64,000 nt of DNA, taken from positions 3,100,001 through 3,164,000 of the forward strand of contig JAHQIY010000003.1 of NCBI GenBank assembly GCA_019054805.1. Direction: 5' to 3'. The translations under genes and the position numbers were made by a program. Source of the stretch: Brachionus manjavacas (lineage: Eukaryota; Rotifera; Eurotatoria; Ploima; Brachionidae). The notes under the pieces are model-generated. The model did not search any database and had not been told where the DNA came from. It worked only from the letters and a program-made list of their open reading frames with translations. Below are positions 1,675 through 61,009 of the stretch, piece after piece. Position 1 is the stretch's first letter, and each line of letters opens with the position of its first letter.

Positions 1675-3984
1675 CCTAATAACTCTTGTCCAATTAGTAT
1701 GACAAGTTGCCTTGGCAAGTTACTTGAACGGATTATTTACACTAGAATATATATACTAAATTTACTTGAAAACGATAAATTATTTATTCAAGAGCCATCA
1801 TGATTTAGAAAAACTAGACGCACTGCAGATAATCTTTATTTTCCTATTCAAAAAGTTGAAGATTCTTTTAATAGAAAGACAAATGTATGTTGTCTTTATT
1901 TTGACATTTCTAAAGCTTTTGATTGAGTTTAGCATGATAGACTAATTTACAAGCTAATTAAAATTGATCTCCCTCCTTATCGAGGCTTCAAACTGTGGAT
2001 TTACGTGTATACTTGTATCCATGGACTTGGCAAAAGCTTTTGACAAGGTATCACTTCGCAGGCTATTAGTAAAGTTAGAGACTTATGGTTTTGATAATAA
2101 ACTAATAAGATGGATTAAAAACTTTTTGATTGAAAAACGTCAAAGAGTGGCAATGGGAGGCTGTACCTCAGAATGGGTAGAAGTTTTAAGCGGCGTACCC
2201 CAAGGAACGGTTCTCGGCCCCTTGCTTTTCATTATCTTCATTAATTACCGGATTGTGCAAATTGTTTGCTGATGACACAAAACTTGTATCTATTATTCGG
2301 AATCAAATGGACTTAACTTATCTACGAAACAAAATGACATAAATCAGCTGTTGAGTGGTCAAACACATGGAAAATGGAGTTCAATGATGATAAATGCAAA
2401 TTCATGGCGTTCAATAACAAGCACTTTTCAATTAGCTTAAAAATGAAAGGGAAACCACTTAATCAAACTGAAAGAGAACGGGACCTAGACATCATCATTA
2501 CTAGCAATCTCAAATGGAACACTCAAGTTTTTCATGCTGCCAACAAAGCAAATACCGTCCTCGCTATGCTGAAAAAAACTTTCAAATGTTGGACCCTACA
2601 TACATTTCGAAAACTATATATTGCATTTGTAGGACCACACTTGGAATATGCCATAGTAGTGAGGAGTCCTTATAAAAAAAAGGATATTTTGCAGTGCTTG
2701 AAAGAGTTCAAAGACGAGCAACTAAACTAGTAAAGATCATAAGGGACTTGCCGTAGGACTGCAGACTCAAAAAGCTAGGCTTGACAACACAATCGATGGA
2801 CCAGTGCGTAGCGTTCGCGGAAGCAAACACCGTTTGGAAAAGCAGTTAACCAAGAATGGATACAGAGAACATTTTCTGTTGAATAGAGTTGTTGACAATT
2901 GGAACAATTTAACAACAGAGGCTATCACATCCAGAAGCAAAAGCCTCTTCAAGAAAAGAGAAGACGATTCAGGAGCCTTCACGGTGCAAAAATTGCTAAC
3001 ATAGCAAGCAATAGCTTGCTCTACAGTTAACATGTTGTAGCCTATTATTATTATTATTATTATTATCTTATTTATTTGATAAGATCGTTTCTCCATTTAA
3101 GATCTTTTAAAGAATAAATGTAAATGATCATCTAAGTCAATATCATCTTAAAGCAAGAGTTCCACAAGGGCCAGTAATTAGTCCACTTCTTTTTAGCATT
3201 TCATAAATGACAAACCAAAACGAAACAAAACAAACTGTCAATATTCACTTCTTTTTGCGGATCATTTGGCTTTTTTTTTATTTTCAAAAAGATAGGAAAT
3301 CTTGAAAACATGATTAATAAGTCCCTAAAAGTATTTGAAAGATGGCTTTTCAGATAAAAAATGAAAATTTCTATTAAAAAGTTATGTTACATGATCTTTG
3401 AGAAAAAAACTAAAATTAAAATCAATCTTGACCTTAAAATTAATGGTTACAATTTAAATTATGAAGAAAAAGTTAAATTTTTAGGCATCACATTGGGCTC
3501 AAAACTTACATTAAGTCCAATGGTAGATGAATTAAAAGAGCGCTGTAATTCAAGGCTTAATATAATAAAATATATCTCAAATAGGAAATGGGGTTTAAAA
3601 CCAAAAACCTTAGGAAATATTTACAAATCTTTGATAGGATTAATCTTGGATTATTCTTTTCCTTGTTTAAATTTATTCTCAGAAACTAACATCAAAAAAT
3701 TACAAGTTATTCAAAATTCAGCAGTTCGAGTTAGAGATATGTCAGGGTAGGTTTGAGTCTTCTGCTCCATTGATCGTCAGACTGGTGGAAGAATATTGTG
3801 AAGGTTTTGAATCAAGATTTATCGAATATCCAACTCCATTGTGTAATTCCTATCAAATATTTAAACATATCTAACCTCTAGATATTTCAACTTAACGTTT
3901 TTAATTTTATTTTCATTTTTTTAATTTTCATTTTATTTTTATTCTGAAGGAGCATTAGCTCGGCACAGATTTACAAATAAATAA
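1675..3984 (+). repeat. LINE-A copy, split by a LINE-B insertion
   Basis: The RT fingers lie at 1690-1983 (PISMTSCLGKLLERIIYTRI, FRKTRRTADNL, CLYFDISKAFD with stops at D*V*HDRL). The frame resumes after a foreign segment at about 3070 with the block matching VNDHLSEEYQITA...PQGSVISP of the other LINE-A copies. It then gives the C-terminal ORF at 3361-3750 (KFLGITLGSKL, KERCNSRLNIIKYIS, LDYSFPCLN). The 3' end is CTGAAGGAGCATTAGCTCGG followed by AAATAAATAAAT at about 3950-3984. Multiple stops and frameshifts make it non-functional. Confidence 0.75.
1984..3066 (+). repeat. LINE-B copy, 5'-truncated, nested inside LINE-A
   Basis: RT core at 1964-2272 (MDLAKAFDKVSLRRLLVKLE, GVPQGTVLGPLLFIIF); FADDTKL in a shifted frame at about 2258-2284; thumb at 2374-2730 (ERERDLDIIITSNLKWNTQV, FVGPHLEYA); 3' end of the ORF at 2804-3004 (LNRVVDNWNNLTTEA). 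It ends in TGTAGCC(TATT)(ATT)n at 3038-3066. CR1/L2/Jockey-type organisation by motif; the exact clade is not assigned. Several frameshifts. Confidence 0.78.
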
Positions 3985-6166: not shown

Positions 6167-9100
6167 CTTAAATATATTAGTAATTTAATTTTGTTCAGAA
6201 TAAGGCTTTTTGTAATAAATTTTAATTTTTTCTAGTTTAGTTTAATTTAGCAATGCTGCGATTTTGGCGTACTCAGGTATTCTAAAAAGGCTATTAGTAT
6301 TTCGTGCCACAAAAATAGTTGAAAATACCACTAAAGATAATTGAAGCATACCTTTTTTTTTAATATTAACAAATTAAATAAAATTTAATTTATTTTTTAT
6401 TTTTTTAAAGTATTTTTATTAAAGTGAGTTGAGTATTCCACTCTTTGTCTCACTGAACAGTTAATTTTAAATTTAATTTTTAAAAAAGAATAAAAATAAA
6501 TAAAAAATAAAATAAAAAGTGAGTAGGTTTTAATATCTCTAAAGACATTGCTGTGAAATTTTTTCGTACGGGTTGTCCTATTCTAACTGAAAATTATAAA
6601 TCTATCTGGAACCAACTAAATTTTCAATATTTACCCTTAAATTACTGACACAAATAGGCTCCTTAAAGGGACTGAAAATGCTTTCTAATTTATTTACAAA
6701 ACACGGAGCCTTTTCCTCATCTTCAATATTTTTTTGGTTCGGATCTGTGTTTAGGAATGGGATTATTTGTTTTTTTTCGGCTAATTATTTATTTATTTAT
6801 TTGTATATCTGTACCGAGCTTAAGCTCCTTCAGATTAAAAAAAAAATAAAAAATATAATAAAAAATCAAAATAAGGTTAAATAGAATAAAATAAGAATAA
6901 AAAATAAAAAAAAAATAAATTAAAAATAATATAAGTTAAAAAATAGAGAAATATTAAAATTAAAATAAGATAAATTAAGATAGAGAGTTACAAAATACAT
7001 TTTCTAAATATCTGATGGTTCAGGAAAAAAAGAAGAAATAGTAAGGTAGCAATTACACAATGGAGTTGGGTACTCGATATTTCTTGATTCGAAACCTTTG
7101 TTATATTCTTCCACCAGTCTGAAAACTATTGGAACAGAGTGGCTCAGCCCTGCCCTAACATATCTCTCACTCAACTCAAAAAGTCGATTTGAGACTGTCA
7201 GTAGTTTAAGTTTTTATATGCTTCATGATGTAATATGTTGGAGTGAGTATCATATCTTAGTTTTAGTATAGAACGAACTGCTGAATTTTGGATTACTTCC
7301 AACCTTTTTATATTAGTTTCTGAAAGAGAGTTAAGACAAGGGAAAGAATGATCTAGAATAGATCCTATCAAAGACTTATAAAGATTTCCTAAAGTTTTAA
7401 AGTCAAGGCCCAATTTTTTTTTTGATAAGATTTTGATTAAGTTTAGCCTTGAATTGCATCGTTCTTTAATTTCTTCTATCATTGAAGAAAAGGTTAGTTT
7501 AGAATCGAATTTAATTCCTAGGAACTTTATTTCTTTTAGGGTTTCGATTTTATTCCCATAGATCCTTAAATTAAACACAGAACTTTCTTTGTTGTTTTTA
7601 GTAAAAATCATTGAGCAAGACTGTTCAACCGAAATCTTCATTTTCCACTTGAAAAGCCACTGTTCTAATTCAACTAAGTACTTATTCATCTTACTTTCTA
7701 TTTCCATTTTTTTATAAATAAAAAAAGTCACAAGATCGTCTGCAAAGAGAAGTTAATATTCAATATTAGATTTATTTCTTTTAAGAATATCATTAATAAA
7801 TATACTAAATAATAAAGACACCTCAAACAAGAGGAATCTGGTACATGCTGGTTCTGGTTAAAGAACAATTATTGTTATCATGCTTCTTTTTGCTGTTTTA
7901 GACTAAGTAAGTATTTTTTATTCTAACGATGTAACTTTATTCTAATATTAATTTTCTTTTATTTTAGGACTCATGAATTTCGAAAAAATTGGTATAGCCA
8001 TATAAACAAAGTTAAATTATAAAAACTCAAAGCCAAGCCAACGAAAAGTATCCAAAATGTAATGCTGATATGCAGATACTAAATGGTTTCTATTGCCCGA
8101 ATGGTTGTAACTAAAAAAAGAATGGTTTAATCAATTTAATTTAATTTTTATCCTATTACGTACATTTCTACTAATTTTGTTCTACTTTTACTATTAAAGT
8201 TTTTTTTTATAATTTATAAGTTCTTGAAATTAAAATAAATAAATACATTTCTATTTTATTAATTTTGTTTTCTTTTAAAAAATTTGTTAATAACGAAATT
8301 TTCAGTAATTACCAAATTTACTATTCACAAGTATTAAGGGTCTTTTAGAAATTCAATTAAAAATCATTAAACAAGATTTTTATCCTTTACCAAAAATTAA
8401 CTGGTAAAGTTTAAATCTTTTTCCCACAAAAAATTAATTTTATTTAGAAATTTGTAAAAAATTTAAATTTCACAAAAATTAAACAAAATAACTCATTAAT
8501 AATTTAGTTTATCTCATAGTTGCACATTCAAAAGCAAGAGATCACTTTAGAAATTTCTAACTATGTCCATAAGAATTGGACCCTGCTATTTGTTTTGTAC
8601 ATAAATGACCTACCTGACTGCGTTTCAAATAAAATGGAATTTTATTCAGATGACTCGAAAATACTCGGTATAGTTAATAATGTTTATGAGAGAGCGATGT
8701 TACAGAAATATCTGGATGCAGAATGTCAATGGATAGAGGTTTGGCGTATGGGATTTTGTGCTAACAAATGTAAAGTAATGCATTTCGGCAGACTAAATGA
8801 AAGGCATAAATATACACAAAAAAGCAACAGGAATGTTATACTAGCGACCACAGATTGTGAAAGGGATCTTGGAGTGATGGTTTCATCAGATTTGAAGTGG
8901 ACCAGCCAAGTGAAAAGTGCTTGTGCGAAAGCGAGTAGGGTGCTAGGAATGCTAAAGCGAACGTTTACAAGTAGAGAGGAAAGACTGTGGGTAAGATTGT
9001 ATATATCCATGGTGAGACCCCACCTAGATTACGCAGTGCAGGTTTGGAATCCAAGTATGAAAATGGACGTGAATGCGTTGAAAAAGGTGCAAGAGAGGGC

Positions 9101-21100: not shown

Positions 21101-24100
21101 AAAATTTTCATAACTAAATTCTGTAAAATTTTAAGAATTATTTTTTGTACAGTGTTTCTGTAAAAAAACCAACATCGTTTAAATTAGGTTATTTTACTTA
21201 AAATTAAGTTAAAAAAATATACATATTCCTAGGCGCTCATATCCTTTTCAAGTACCTTTTTGAGCAACGGCTCCGATCTGACACAGAGGCTATTGCATCG
21301 AGTTGATCATCTACACCGAAATTATTACCCAGTCGAAACTGGTGCCCCTATTTTTATGATGAAAGAAGTTTAAACATTCGCCCCGTATTGTAGAGATATT
21401 TTGAAGATTTTTTTACCCTCAGCTGGTTTTGTACCCTCGATCCTCTGCTTGCATGACTAACACGCAAACCATTCGGCTATACGGGCTCTAATTTTAAGTA
21501 AGCTTACGTAAAATTGCAAAAATGTTAGTTTATTTAGATATATATTTTTTTTTTTTAAATACTAAAAAATTATATTTTATTACAAAATTTTACCAAAATT
21601 TACCTTGAGTAATTTGACCCATAATTGCGTAATGGTAAAATTAGTATTTTGAACAATTTTTATTTTACTCTTTTTCAGGGAAGATTTTACAAAAAATTAT
21701 TAAATAAATTTAATGTAATTTTACCAAATATGGGTTTTTTGTAAGGTTAAGTGCAGTAAAAAATGGACCTGTACGGACTAATTTTTTTATTTCTTTTTTA
21801 AGTAATGGGTATTCAAAAATAATGATCAAACTATTTAGAAGTAAAATTTTATGCTCTAATTGACCGAATTTAATCGAATTTTGTTCAAATATTTTACTAT
21901 AACAAAAAAGAAAATTAAAATATTTAGTTGATAACTGAAAGAAAAAGGTCATCTGGAGCACCTTTGTCTGTAAATCACACCTGTCATAAATTTATTATCA
22001 TATTAATGATTAGAATAAGCACTTAAATTTAGGAATTTACCTCTAAGACCCTCTCGAACGGCGTTTATTCTTCTGTTTAGTTCCCATTTTTATAAAAATA
22101 GAAGTTTGCATAAAAGCTAGAATGTAAAATTATTTAGAATTAGAAATAGAATTTTTTTTTAATTTTAAAAACTAAAAATTAATTAATTTAGTTTGAGTTT
22201 GAGAAAATTTAAATTACAGAGCTGATTTGTTACTAGGACCTGACGATATTTTACGTAAATTAACGTTATTTTACGTTAAAAAATGTAATTTTTCATGATT
22301 TTTGACTTGTCGATGATAAACTTAAATTGAATTGTACCAATTGTTACCAGAAAGAAATAGATCCTAAATTTTCATTTCCAAAAAGATATATTAGAGCTTT
22401 TATCGGCATCTTTAATGCAAATGTTCCTCTCAAAGTCATGTGGTCAAAAATTTATAAAGTTCAATTTGTTTCTGTAATGGAAACAAATCGAGCTTTACTT
22501 GTGACAATTTAAAACAATTTACATGTGATCTTTCTGTAGGAGAGAAGGTTTAAATCGATCTGTAAGAATTTTTAAGAACAAGCTACGAATTTAAAAAACA
22601 TTTTTTTCCTGTTTTTGTATCTAATTTATTTTATGAATGATTTAAAATTTTAACCTTAAAAATATGCATATTTTTTTTAAATTAAAATAAAAATTAATAA
22701 GAGACATTTATCTTTATATTCAGTATATTTTTTTAACATATTTTGAATAATTATGGTACTTGATGTTATCAAAAAAGCATATTTTTTTAAAGGGTTTTTT
22801 TGGACCCTTTTAGTACTTGACGTTTAAAAAAATCGGTGTTTGAGTGTTAATAACAATACAATACCATAAAACATTGTTGCCGGTTATGTTGACTGGATCT
22901 CTTTGACATATTAGTGGGAGTAGTGTTACGTAAAAGATTTAAAATTTTTCTATTCAAAACACAAAAACACTTCCATTTATTATTTATTTAACTATATTTA
23001 TATATTTCTTAACTTGGCGCCGGCAATCAATCAGCTGAGTTAATCTAAAAAACTAGCAACTAGATTCATGACACTCATGAACATGAAAGGAAAAATAACT
23101 AGGGTGAAGCAACGCCTATATAATATAGTAACACGTCAACAAACATGTTAAGGAAATGTTTGCCAACATGTTATTGTTATTCAGAATTTTTCTTATTTTC
23201 CCAATAAGCAAAGCAAGTTCTGAAAATTCTATTTCTATTTTAAAAGGTCTAAAAAGAAGGTATAGGATTTCGATCTGACAAAATTAAAAAATTTTGCTCT
23301 ATTAAGAAATTTGTGTTTGTTGAGAAATTTTGTTCAAAAAAAAAATTGAAAGATAGAATTTTTTGTTTTTTTTGTTTAAATTATTTTTTAAACTCAAAAA
23401 CTAATAATTTTTACGTAAATTCCAGTTAATAAGATCTGTTTTTTAACATGTAAATATTGCAAATTTTCAGCATTTTCAATACTTTTTTTTATTTGATTAA
23501 ATAAAAATTTATCAGAAAATAAATAATGTTCATTTAATTTAAAATTTAATATTTATATTTTGGAGATTTATATTCTTAATTTCAAGTCCCAATAATAAAA
23601 TTTAGATAATACTTAAATTTTAAATTCCTTAACTTAACTAGATATTTACTTACAGTTTCCCAATAGACTTTTCCACTAAAGTTAAGCCATAAATCCAAAA
23701 ATTCTCTTAGCCAAAATTTAAGGCTGTTTCCTTGATCGAGCAAAATTGTGGGCAAAAACAGACTAAATCTATCGAAGGCATAATTCATTGACATGTCAAA
23801 TGGGCACATCAATGGCCGCCATTCTTCAAGCATATCATTTACTGAGCTTTCATCAAAATAAATTCTTGCAAAGCTAATAAAGTTCAAAAATGATATTTGT
23901 TCTATGTTGCTGGAAAAATTAACAATTAACAAAATTATTTTAAAAAATTTGATTTCAACTTACTCAGGCGCAAAGATGGATGATTTCTCATCTATTTTGT
24001 GAATACGTCTATAAAGTGTGTACAAAGGGCGCCAGTCTATTCGAAGATCATCTCTTTTTAGGAGATAGTATTTCCTTTAAAAAATTTTAGACTTAGATTT

Positions 24101-41944: not shown

Positions 41945-42000
41945 ATATCTTTTTATAATTTACCCTGAAGACTTTAGCTCGGTACAGAAAACAAATAAAA
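41945..42000 (+). repeat. LINE-A-type 3' tail fragment
   Basis: ACCCTGAAGACTTTAGCTCG GTACAG followed by AAACAAATAAAAAAAA; compare CTGAAGGAGCTTAAGCTCGG TACAG of LINE-A. A similar tail occurs at about 42540-42590. Confidence 0.5.
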
Positions 42001-57800: not shown

Positions 57801-58147
57801 TTTCCGAATTGAAACTGTTGCCGGGTAGGTTGACTGGATCTCTTTGACATAGTAGTGGGAGTAGTGTTACATAAAAGATTTAAAATTTTCCAATTCAGAA
57901 CACAAAATCAACACTATTTATTCTAAACTAAACTAAACTAAATTTAAAGTTTTGTGATGGTTTGAGCTGGTCAGCATAACGGGATTATGCGCACCACCCA
58001 TCACAGAATTGCTTTAAGGCCCGGCCTTTTTCAACCCATTTTTTTGGTTTCTTTGTTGTTTGTTGTCTGTATGTCTATCTTCACTGTTTTGCTAATTTGT
58101 TGCTATTAGTGAAAACAAAACTGTTGCTGTTCTAGTTGCTAATTGGA

Positions 58148-59815
58148 CTAAATGTCCAATTGGACAACAAAGTCAATTAGTTTCTGCCAGTTGTTTTTTT
58201 TCTTGGTTTTTGATTGATTAGTTGTCTCTGTCGAGGTAGGTTGGTTAATTGATGTCTTTGTTGTTGATTGAGTTGTTTGTGGAAGAATGTGAGCGAGAAT
58301 GGGTTTGACTCCGTTTTTAACACGCGGCTTGGAGTTTGGATTATAATTCTCAATTAAATCTTTAATTAGTTTGTTGCTGTTCGATGCTTTCTGAAGATAG
58401 CGTGTTGATAGCAACTCGAAGCGGTCCTTGATGCAGTCGATTCTTGCAAGCTTGTAGCAGTCTTTTGTTGCAGTTGAAACGGGGAGTCTATACGCTATTT
58501 TAACTGCTTTTCGTTGGCGCATTTCAAGTGTGGTCATGCTTGTTTCCGAAGCACTGTACTTGATGAACGGTATGTACTTCATTATCGGCCTGATAAGTGT
58601 CTTATAAGTTGTTAGTAGCAGTTTTGGTGAGGCTCCCCAGTTTTTACCCCTTATTGATCGCATCATGTTGATTCTTCGATCAACTCTAGCGTTGATTTTT
58701 TAAATGTGGTCATAGAACGTTAAGTTCTTGTCCAACTTAAGCCCCAGCAGCTAAGGCTTATTGTCGTGCTTGATCCTCTTGCCATGTAGTATTATGTCGA
58801 GCTTGCGTTTTCCCTGTCCATTGAGACGTGTGAATATTGTACAAACTGTCTTTGCTGTGCTGAGTTTCATTCTCCAGTGTATTGACCATGTTTCGACTTC
58901 TTTGATTGCCTGCTGTAGATTGCTTTCCACTTTTTCGATTTTAGGGCTTGTAGTCCAAATTGAGAGGTCATCGGCAAACAGACCTTTGTCCGCTGTTGTA
59001 ATCTTGTCGATAATGTCATCAATGAAGATGTTGAATAGCAATGGCCAGAGTTCACTTCCTTGTGGGACACCACACTTAATTTGATGGAGCGTTGATTTAG
59101 ATGACTGGACACGTACTTGGAATGTTCTGTTACTCAAGTAGTTCCGTATCCATGCTCCTATGTAGGCTGGACATTCTTTCTTTTCCATTTTAAAAAGAAG
59201 TCCGTCGTGCCATAATTTGTCGAAGGCTTTTTCGATGTCAATGAAGACCGCTCCAGTTGTTTTACGTTCGTTTACCCCATGTTGTATTGTTTGGATGAGT
59301 CGGAAGATGTGGTCTCGTGTTTGACGCTTAGACATGAAACCGCTTTGATGCTTGCTAATAACTTGTTTCTCATGGATCCAAGTGAAGATTCTGTTTTTAA
59401 TGATTCGTTCTGTGATCTTGGACATGGTAGACAAAAGGCTAATTGGTCTGTAGCTCGATGGATCTAGCGGATTCTTTCCCGGCTTTGGGATCATGACTAT
59501 TTCCGCGTGTTTCCATTGATTTGAGATGTGGCTTAGTTTAATTGAACCGTTAATAATGTTTGTCATGATGTGGTGGAACTCTTCTGGAAGTTTTTTTAGA
59601 GTTTTGTGTGAAATTTTGTCAGCGCCTGGAGCACCTCGTCCTGTGATGTCTTGGAGGATATTCATTATTTCGTGAGCTGTTACAAGTTCAACTGATTGGT
59701 GTCCATTTGGTGGATTTTCAAACATCTGCTTGGTTGCGCTCTCTACTGTTGCTTTGAAGGTTTCGTTGAATTCAGGCTCGTTTGTTGGTTGAAAAGTTTG
59801 TTCGAGAAAAGCCAA
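58148..59815 (-). pseudogene. LINE-D reverse transcriptase with two stop codons
   Basis: Frame 59815-58751, then in the same frame to 58148 after TAG (58753-58751) and a further TAA at about 58700. It includes GRGAPGADKISHKTLKKLPE, SSYRPISLLSTMSKITERII, SGFMSKRQTRDHI, VFIDIEKAFDKLWHDGLLFK, IKCGVPQGSELWPLLFNIFI and GLFADDLSIWT (catalytic FADD present). The C-terminus reads KTLIRPIMKYIPFIKYSASE and ends FVVQLDI. The layout resembles Jockey-type LINEs as I know them. Only two disabling changes over 550 codons, so this is a fairly young copy. Confidence 0.85.
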
Positions 59816-60667
59816 GCAAACAATTCAAGCTCAAAGACTACACAATTCATAGGCACGACAGATTAAGGGCTGAACGGGGAGGTGTGTGCATCTGCGTGAG
59901 AAAAACCATTCCCTGCCTTGTCGTCTCTAAGAGTCCAAACAACAGCATCACCGAATGGATCACTATTCGTATACCGAAGATCTTCACGTAACGTCGGTCT
60001 ATATTCCGCCAGGTAATGAAATCAGCAAAAATACAATGCAAGGCATCTTTAGTTACTCCAACACTTTAGTAGCTGGAGATTTCAACGCTCACAATACACT
60101 GTGGGCCTCATCAGAGACGGACAAACTAACAAAGGCTCTTTAGACTGTACTCAATGAGCTAGAGCTGACTGTTCATCACACAGATACTCCTACCTACGTT
60201 CCCTACTACAGACTCCACTACGCATCAACGCTTGACCTTATCATAACAAGCAACTCAACTGACGTCCGCATCAACAAACCAACTACACTCACCAGTCCAC
60301 GAAGTGATCATCTCCCAATACTGTTCACCGTCGAGTCTAAGCCGATTGATAGACAGCAGCAAGCTACAATAACAAAGACAAAAGTCGATTGGGACAAATT
60401 TAAAGAAGCTGCCAAAAAAGCCCTTCGTCCATTGCTAGGAGAAAATATCCAAACCAAGGAGGACATTGACAAGTTAACTCGACAACTTGAGTCAACAATC
60501 ACGTCGACTATTAACGGAGCCAAGAAAACATACTCAGTCAAGAGCTATCAAACACAAGTCTTACCAAGAAATATTGTTACTCTCATCAAAGAAAAGAGAA
60601 AACTCCAACGTCATCTTTTGGAAGATAGATCAGCAGAAACAGTGCGACAAATCAACAAACTCTCCGG
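59795..60667 (+). pseudogene. LINE-D endonuclease and linker (inverted segment)
   Basis: AP-type endonuclease motifs in order: LRAERGGVCICVRKT (59782-59991 frame), a frameshift near 59970, then HVTSVYIPPGNE, LVAGDFNAHNTLWASS, one TAG at about 60141, STLDLIITSN, SPRSDHLPILFTVE, and a Lys/Gln-rich linker to AETVRQINKLSG at 60667. The first about 30 residues of the domain are missing at the inversion junction. The orientation is opposite to that of its own RT. Confidence 0.82.
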
Positions 60668-61009
60668 ACACTATTTATTCAAATTTAACTTATATTTATA
60701 TATTTCTTAACTAGGCGCCAGTAATCAATCAGTTGAATTAGACTAACAAACTAGCAACTAGATTCATGACACTCATGAATTTGAAAGGACTAATAACCGC
60801 GACCTAGCTACGCCTTTAATAACACGGCAACAGAAACGATCGAATTGAAAACTTCAAAACCCATAAAAATCTGCTTTTTTTACGATTTTTTATGAAATTA
60901 AGCAATTTTTATAAGAAAAATTTTTTTTTTATTCGAAAGAAAAAATCATTTTGAAAAGTAATTGATACTGATATAATTTTCAGTGTCAATCACTAATCAT
61001 CGGCAAAAA

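Follow-up and report, generated by a model that had tools for sequence, protein, structure and literature searches.

A 5'-inverted LINE inside a solo-LTR-like element of Brachionus manjavacas, and other insertions of the LINE at the same LTR position

Nested insertions and their host element

We analysed a window of 64,000 nucleotides, which is part of the 114-Mb Brachionus manjavacas genome in 61 contigs; all genome-wide counts refer to those contigs. A LINE was found within a solo-LTR-like element, and a second, empty copy of the LTR family lies elsewhere in the window. The features are as follows.

22875-23141, plus strand: second LTR-family copy, empty at the LINE site, with AACAT duplications at 22870-22874 and 23142-23146
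57811-57815: outer target site duplication GAAAC, left copy, exactly matching 60833-60837
57816-57923, plus strand: left part of the solo-LTR-like element, starting TGTTGCCG, with 19 genome matches including itself (alignment of 17 LTR loci)
57911-57923: inner target site duplication ACACTATTTATTC, left copy; its last C may belong to the LINE tail
57924-57942, minus strand: (TTTAG)n 3' tail of the LINE, read in the sequence as plus-strand (TAAAC)n from 57924
57943-59806, minus strand: 3' segment of the LINE with the 3' end and reverse transcriptase (RT), in the same orientation as the tail; RVT_1 match; 57932-59806 is 94.0% identical to C8:4206329-4208192
59807-59808: inversion junction, at most two bases matching neither sister copy (the match to the C8 copy ends at 59806, that to the C8:463 kb copy starts at 59809)
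59809-60667, plus strand: inverted 5' segment of the LINE with endonuclease and linker, placed by sister-copy matches; a 3-nt microhomology extends it to 60670
60668-60680: inner target site duplication ACACTATTTATTC, right copy
60681-60832, plus strand: right part of the solo-LTR-like element, ending CGGCAACA, with 18 genome matches including itself (alignment of 17 LTR loci)
60833-60837: outer target site duplication GAAAC, right copy, exactly matching the left copy

The LTR spans 57816-60832 with the insert and measures 260 bp once the LINE insert is removed. The preliminary description had reported an outer LTR with TG...CA ends and a perfect GAAAC duplication, and its coordinates were exact to the base. 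The perfect 13-bp duplication that it placed around the inner LINE was recovered at 57911-57923 and 60668-60680, as was the layout in which the RT lies on the minus strand with the (TTTAG)n tail at the target site, while the endonuclease and linker lie on the plus strand and adjoin the other duplication copy. The 13-mer of the inner duplication occurs only 13 times in 114 Mb, including the two window copies; thus, the window duplications did not arise by chance.

The LTR family gave 24 genome matches, which were reduced to 17 loci with both halves plus a duplicated left half on C6. Three of these loci carry the window-type LINE and 14 are unbroken at the LINE site (2 of those 14 are broken elsewhere). 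TG...CA ends together with 5-bp duplications typify LTRs; both are perfect at 9 of the 17 loci, including the window, and absent, shifted or eroded at the other eight. In a low-sensitivity test, no same-strand pair within 20 kb that could represent a two-LTR element was found among the 24 matches, except for the locally duplicated C6 left halves. The earlier name 'solo LTR' therefore stands as far as the ends and duplications are concerned, but no two-LTR element was found among these loci, so that the solo status is deduced.

Two further observations were made on this family. The region C6:286001-304500 (L055, L056) is a local duplication, direct and inverted, of 97-99% identity that carries the LTR left half; this half is interrupted, at approximately the LINE site, by a repeat that is abundant and has a TTTA-like tail, and the LINE copy of this region lies between two unrelated frames. 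In the window, a repeat with a TTTA-like tail and a GTACCGAGCT core is present at 3899-3984, 6793-6892 and 41951-41999, and it breaks or flanks several LTR copies.

Domain order of the LINE family and the inverted block

In profile searches, the RT frame of the window LINE (58751-59824, minus strand) matched RVT_1 with E=8.7e-38 (130.5 bits, cutoff 29.6), and the broken endonuclease/linker frame (60144-60710, plus strand) gave a sub-threshold match to Exo_endo_phos_2 (20.7 bits, cutoff 27.4). The homologous endonuclease frame of the sister copy at C8:463 kb (L060) passed for both Exo_endo_phos_2 (42.7 bits, cutoff 27.4) and Exo_endo_phos (27.6 bits, cutoff 24.5); a 60-aa piece of L060 had no endonuclease domain match, although the longer frame did. 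In addition, the ORF1 frame of L060 contains a CCHC knuckle (24.3 bits, cutoff 20.8). Judged by these profile matches, the family has both the RT domain and the APE endonuclease and is an APE-type LINE. The domain order assembled from two partial copies is ORF1(CCHC)-EN-RT. Jockey/I/R1-like LINEs have an ORF1 CCHC knuckle, an APE endonuclease and an RT, and the window family shares this order with them; the likeness is one of domain order. When the RT was compared with PDB proteins, the best matches were near-equal for L1 and R2 proteins. The (TTTAG)n tail is also present in the C1 and C8 copies, and a (TTAG)n tail in the C3b and C6 copies. A cluster of degenerate relatives, approximately 76% identical and in both orientations, lies at C2:3872001-3900500 (L062-L064); no intact relative was found in L062 and L063, which have no frame of at least 150 aa except for one histone H2A frame in L062.

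No full-length copy of the window LINE was found in the genome, and colinearity rests on two partial copies. When these were aligned, as the preliminary description had proposed for a full-length relative, the inverted block and the RT block were colinear. In the C8 copy (L054), window 60226-60670 matches on the plus strand at C8:4205670-4206114 (96.4% identity), followed by the window minus strand from 59806 to 57932 starting at C8:4206329; the endonuclease end, linker and RT are all on one strand. In L060 (C8:463350), the ORF1 frame and then the endonuclease frame are on one strand, and window 59809-60126 is 92.9% identical to C8:463350-463686. A genome search for a second copy of window 60127-60225 found none. 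The same-strand order in these sister copies indicates that the family is colinear and that the window copy is inverted. A natural head-to-head architecture, in which the family itself would carry its endonuclease in the opposite orientation, had been named beforehand as a possible objection and was ruled out by the same two copies. As far as can be read from the sequence, the inversion is a property of the window insertion and not of the LINE family.

A small deletion or duplication had been predicted at the junction near 59800. Compared with the C8 copy, the window LINE was found to have lost 214 nt from between the two blocks (L054 4115-4328), which join at 59806/59809. The junction itself has no clear microhomology and up to 2 extra nt. 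The inverted block adjoins the duplication with its 3'-most base and the RT block with its 5'-most base. At its far end, ...CTCCGAACAAATC in the C8 copy corresponds to ...CTCCGGACACTATTTATTC in the window; ACA at 60668-60670 is common to both and can thus be assigned to either the LINE or the target. Where the inverted block adjoins the right duplication, there is therefore a 3-nt microhomology, ACA, against CCGAACAAATC of the C8 copy.

Insertions at one position of the LTR family

A genome search with the LINE 3' end gave at least nine matches. These nine were reduced to six independent copies, namely the window, C3b (C3:5182968), C13 (C13:3097886), C6, C1 and C8, by taking the two parts of the C1 copy together, treating the C6 pair as a local duplication and leaving out C4, where the match covers just the 35-bp border of an internal fragment. 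Of these six, three (window, C3b and C13) share one LTR family as host and agree in insertion position and orientation; two of the three (window and C13) are inverted. In C13, the 3' block corresponds to 57996-58126 in window numbering, and the inverted block (58433-58886) adjoins the right duplication; the duplication ACAGCTATTTATT is perfect over 13 bp, and the microhomology is 2 nt, AC. The C13 copy is without the 3'-terminal 72 nt of the LINE and its tail, in place of which there is a nested 2.4-kb foldback-like insert. This insert, whose inverted ends were recognized by eye, separates the left LTR half from the LINE (L058 2510-4885). The C3b copy is 5'-truncated and approximately 140 nt long; its duplication is approximately AACACTATTTTTTAA versus AACACTTTTTTTTAA, with one mismatch by eye and a longest exact run of 8 by script.

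The other three copies are elsewhere, and their insertion sites do not share the LTR motif. The C8 copy (L054 433-6468) is embedded in a PIF1-helicase-like frame, whose two sides score 35.3 bits and a sub-threshold 18.1 bits, and has a 12-bp duplication; near it, on the opposite strand, there is a sub-threshold LINE endonuclease-like frame. The C1 copy (L057 2899-6790) has an unusually long duplication of at least 39 bp, itself split by a 2.5-kb insert. No target duplication was found at the C6 copy, which adjoins a LINE-like frame of 395 aa (LINE-like by eye) on its 3' side and a different, unrelated frame on its 5' side; the C6 locus has therefore been rearranged. With three of six copies at the LTR site and three of six elsewhere, strict site specificity was not found; the LTR position is a recurrent target, hit in three events only. 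Given the window copy, the probability that at least two of the other five copies fall in the 17 LTRs is approximately 1.6e-8 under uniform chance, and it falls to 5.5e-12 when the copies must also share a 10-bp bin and the orientation; both values depend on uniform chance, which is a crude null.

The identical LTR position and orientation of all three copies would also be expected if one insertion had later been copied along with the LTR. However, the LINE breakpoints differ, ACAG is private to C13 and ACAC to the window copy, each on both sides, and the outer duplications are GAAAC in the window and GTATC in C3b, the C13 LTR being without a clear one. Furthermore, over the shared 3' stretch, the nearest relative of the window LINE is C1 (98.7%) and that of the C13 LINE is C8 (96.9%), both of which lie outside LTRs; the C3b LINE is also most similar to C1 (95.7%), only slightly more so than to the window copy (95.0%). 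In the LTR tree (17 rows, short flanks included, 9 of 14 inner branches weak), each occupied copy is placed beside unoccupied ones and the occupied copies are not grouped. A single ancestral LINE-in-LTR copy was ruled out on the duplication variants, the LINE sublineages and the LTR tree, and copying of one insertion is accordingly very improbable; the evidence points to separate events, since target variants are private and the copies differ in LINE sublineage and LTR locus. An inversion that arose after normal insertion, by recombination or assembly error, could mimic twin priming, but in the window one end coincides exactly with the target duplication and the other meets the RT block, sequence having been deleted between them, and C13 is organized similarly although its breakpoints differ. 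Such a later inversion has hardly any likelihood, and an assembly inversion at the window locus is unlikely.

Reasons for the site preference can be proposed from the copies themselves. The recurrence may mean only that the endonuclease prefers an AT-rich motif such as TATTTATT, which the LTR happens to contain, and not that the LTR itself is targeted; we regard this as a serious contender at somewhat less than even chances. By eye, four of the six 3' junctions (window, C3b, C13 and C6) follow TTTATT or TTTTTT, which those of C1 and C8 do not, and the C6 LTR left half is interrupted at approximately the same position by a different repeat, whose tail is TTTA-like. In contrast, the 10-mer CTATTTATTC occurs 857 times in the genome (reversed control, 729) and in 5 of the 17 LTR loci; LTRs thus make up less than 1% of the 10-mer targets, whereas three of six insertions, a small sample, are in them. 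The genome counts of the 10-mer and the 13-mer mean that a short-motif preference alone explains the recurrence poorly. A more elaborate proposal is a low-copy LINE with one LTR nucleotide as its preferred, non-exclusive landing site, where the second-cut sequence would favour internal priming and hence inversions; this we find doubtful. The host could also be a short terminal-inverted-repeat element with 5-bp duplications instead of an LTR, as the 8-bp inverted ends TGTTGCCG/CGGCAACA and the lack of a two-LTR element among the loci found would suggest; this reading is countered by the 9 of 17 loci that combine TG...CA ends with perfect 5-bp duplications, and we hold it to be improbable.

Probable twin priming and comparison with known elements

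Ordinary twin priming by an APE-type LINE, together with a recurrent target site in the LTR family, very probably accounts for these insertions. The twin-priming geometry put forward in the preliminary description was borne out by colinear relatives, one outer duplication, the 214-nt deletion and the 5' microhomology. The model, with its frequent microhomologies, is described in PMC2912911. We infer an order of enzymatic steps in which the LTR element would first have left a solo LTR with a 5-bp duplication. The APE-type LINE would then have nicked the LTR plus strand after ...ACACTATTTATT(C), and reverse transcription of the LINE RNA would have started from the (UUUAG)n tail; checked by eye, base pairing of this tail with the primer end ...TTATTC is poor. 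The opposite strand may have been cut approximately 13 bp away, and its 3' end (...TGT-OH) may have paired with ACA in the linker part of the same LINE RNA and primed a second cDNA toward the RNA 5' end. Joining of the two cDNAs would leave the RT block normal, the endonuclease/linker block inverted and the 13-bp duplication outside, with a loss of 214 nt between the blocks (217 if ACA is counted to the target).

Like 5'-inverted L1 copies, the window LINE has a normal 3' block, an inverted 5' block, the duplication outside and microhomology at the 5' junction. It differs from them in being an APE-type LINE that has a TTTAG or TTAG tail where L1 has poly(A), and in residing in an AT-rich genome of 114 Mb. 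Tx1L of Xenopus has strict target specificity. The window LINE resembles Tx1L in inserting repeatedly at one position of another mobile element; unlike Tx1L, half of its insertions are elsewhere, and its target is an LTR. Two of the six copies found of the window LINE are inverted, compared with 30.9% of the 2,000-odd human- and chimpanzee-specific L1s, as given in PMC2912911, which also cites work on zebrafish L1 and on vertebrate L2, CR1 and RTE elements. Some non-LTR elements target other transposable elements, according to PMC8869645, which cites the paper on the Tx1L endonuclease. Twin priming and LINEs that target other transposons are thus both known, and the unusual part is the repeated LTR target; among the open-licence PMC papers listed in literature searches, none was seen to describe an LTR that a LINE hits recurrently. 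The insertions at one defined nucleotide, comprising two inversions with different internal priming points and one plain truncation, form a natural series in which the target is constant, and this series lets internal second-strand priming be compared with ordinary truncation outside mammals. Moreover, with 14 of the 17 LTR loci unbroken at the site, the pre-insertion sequence can be read directly.
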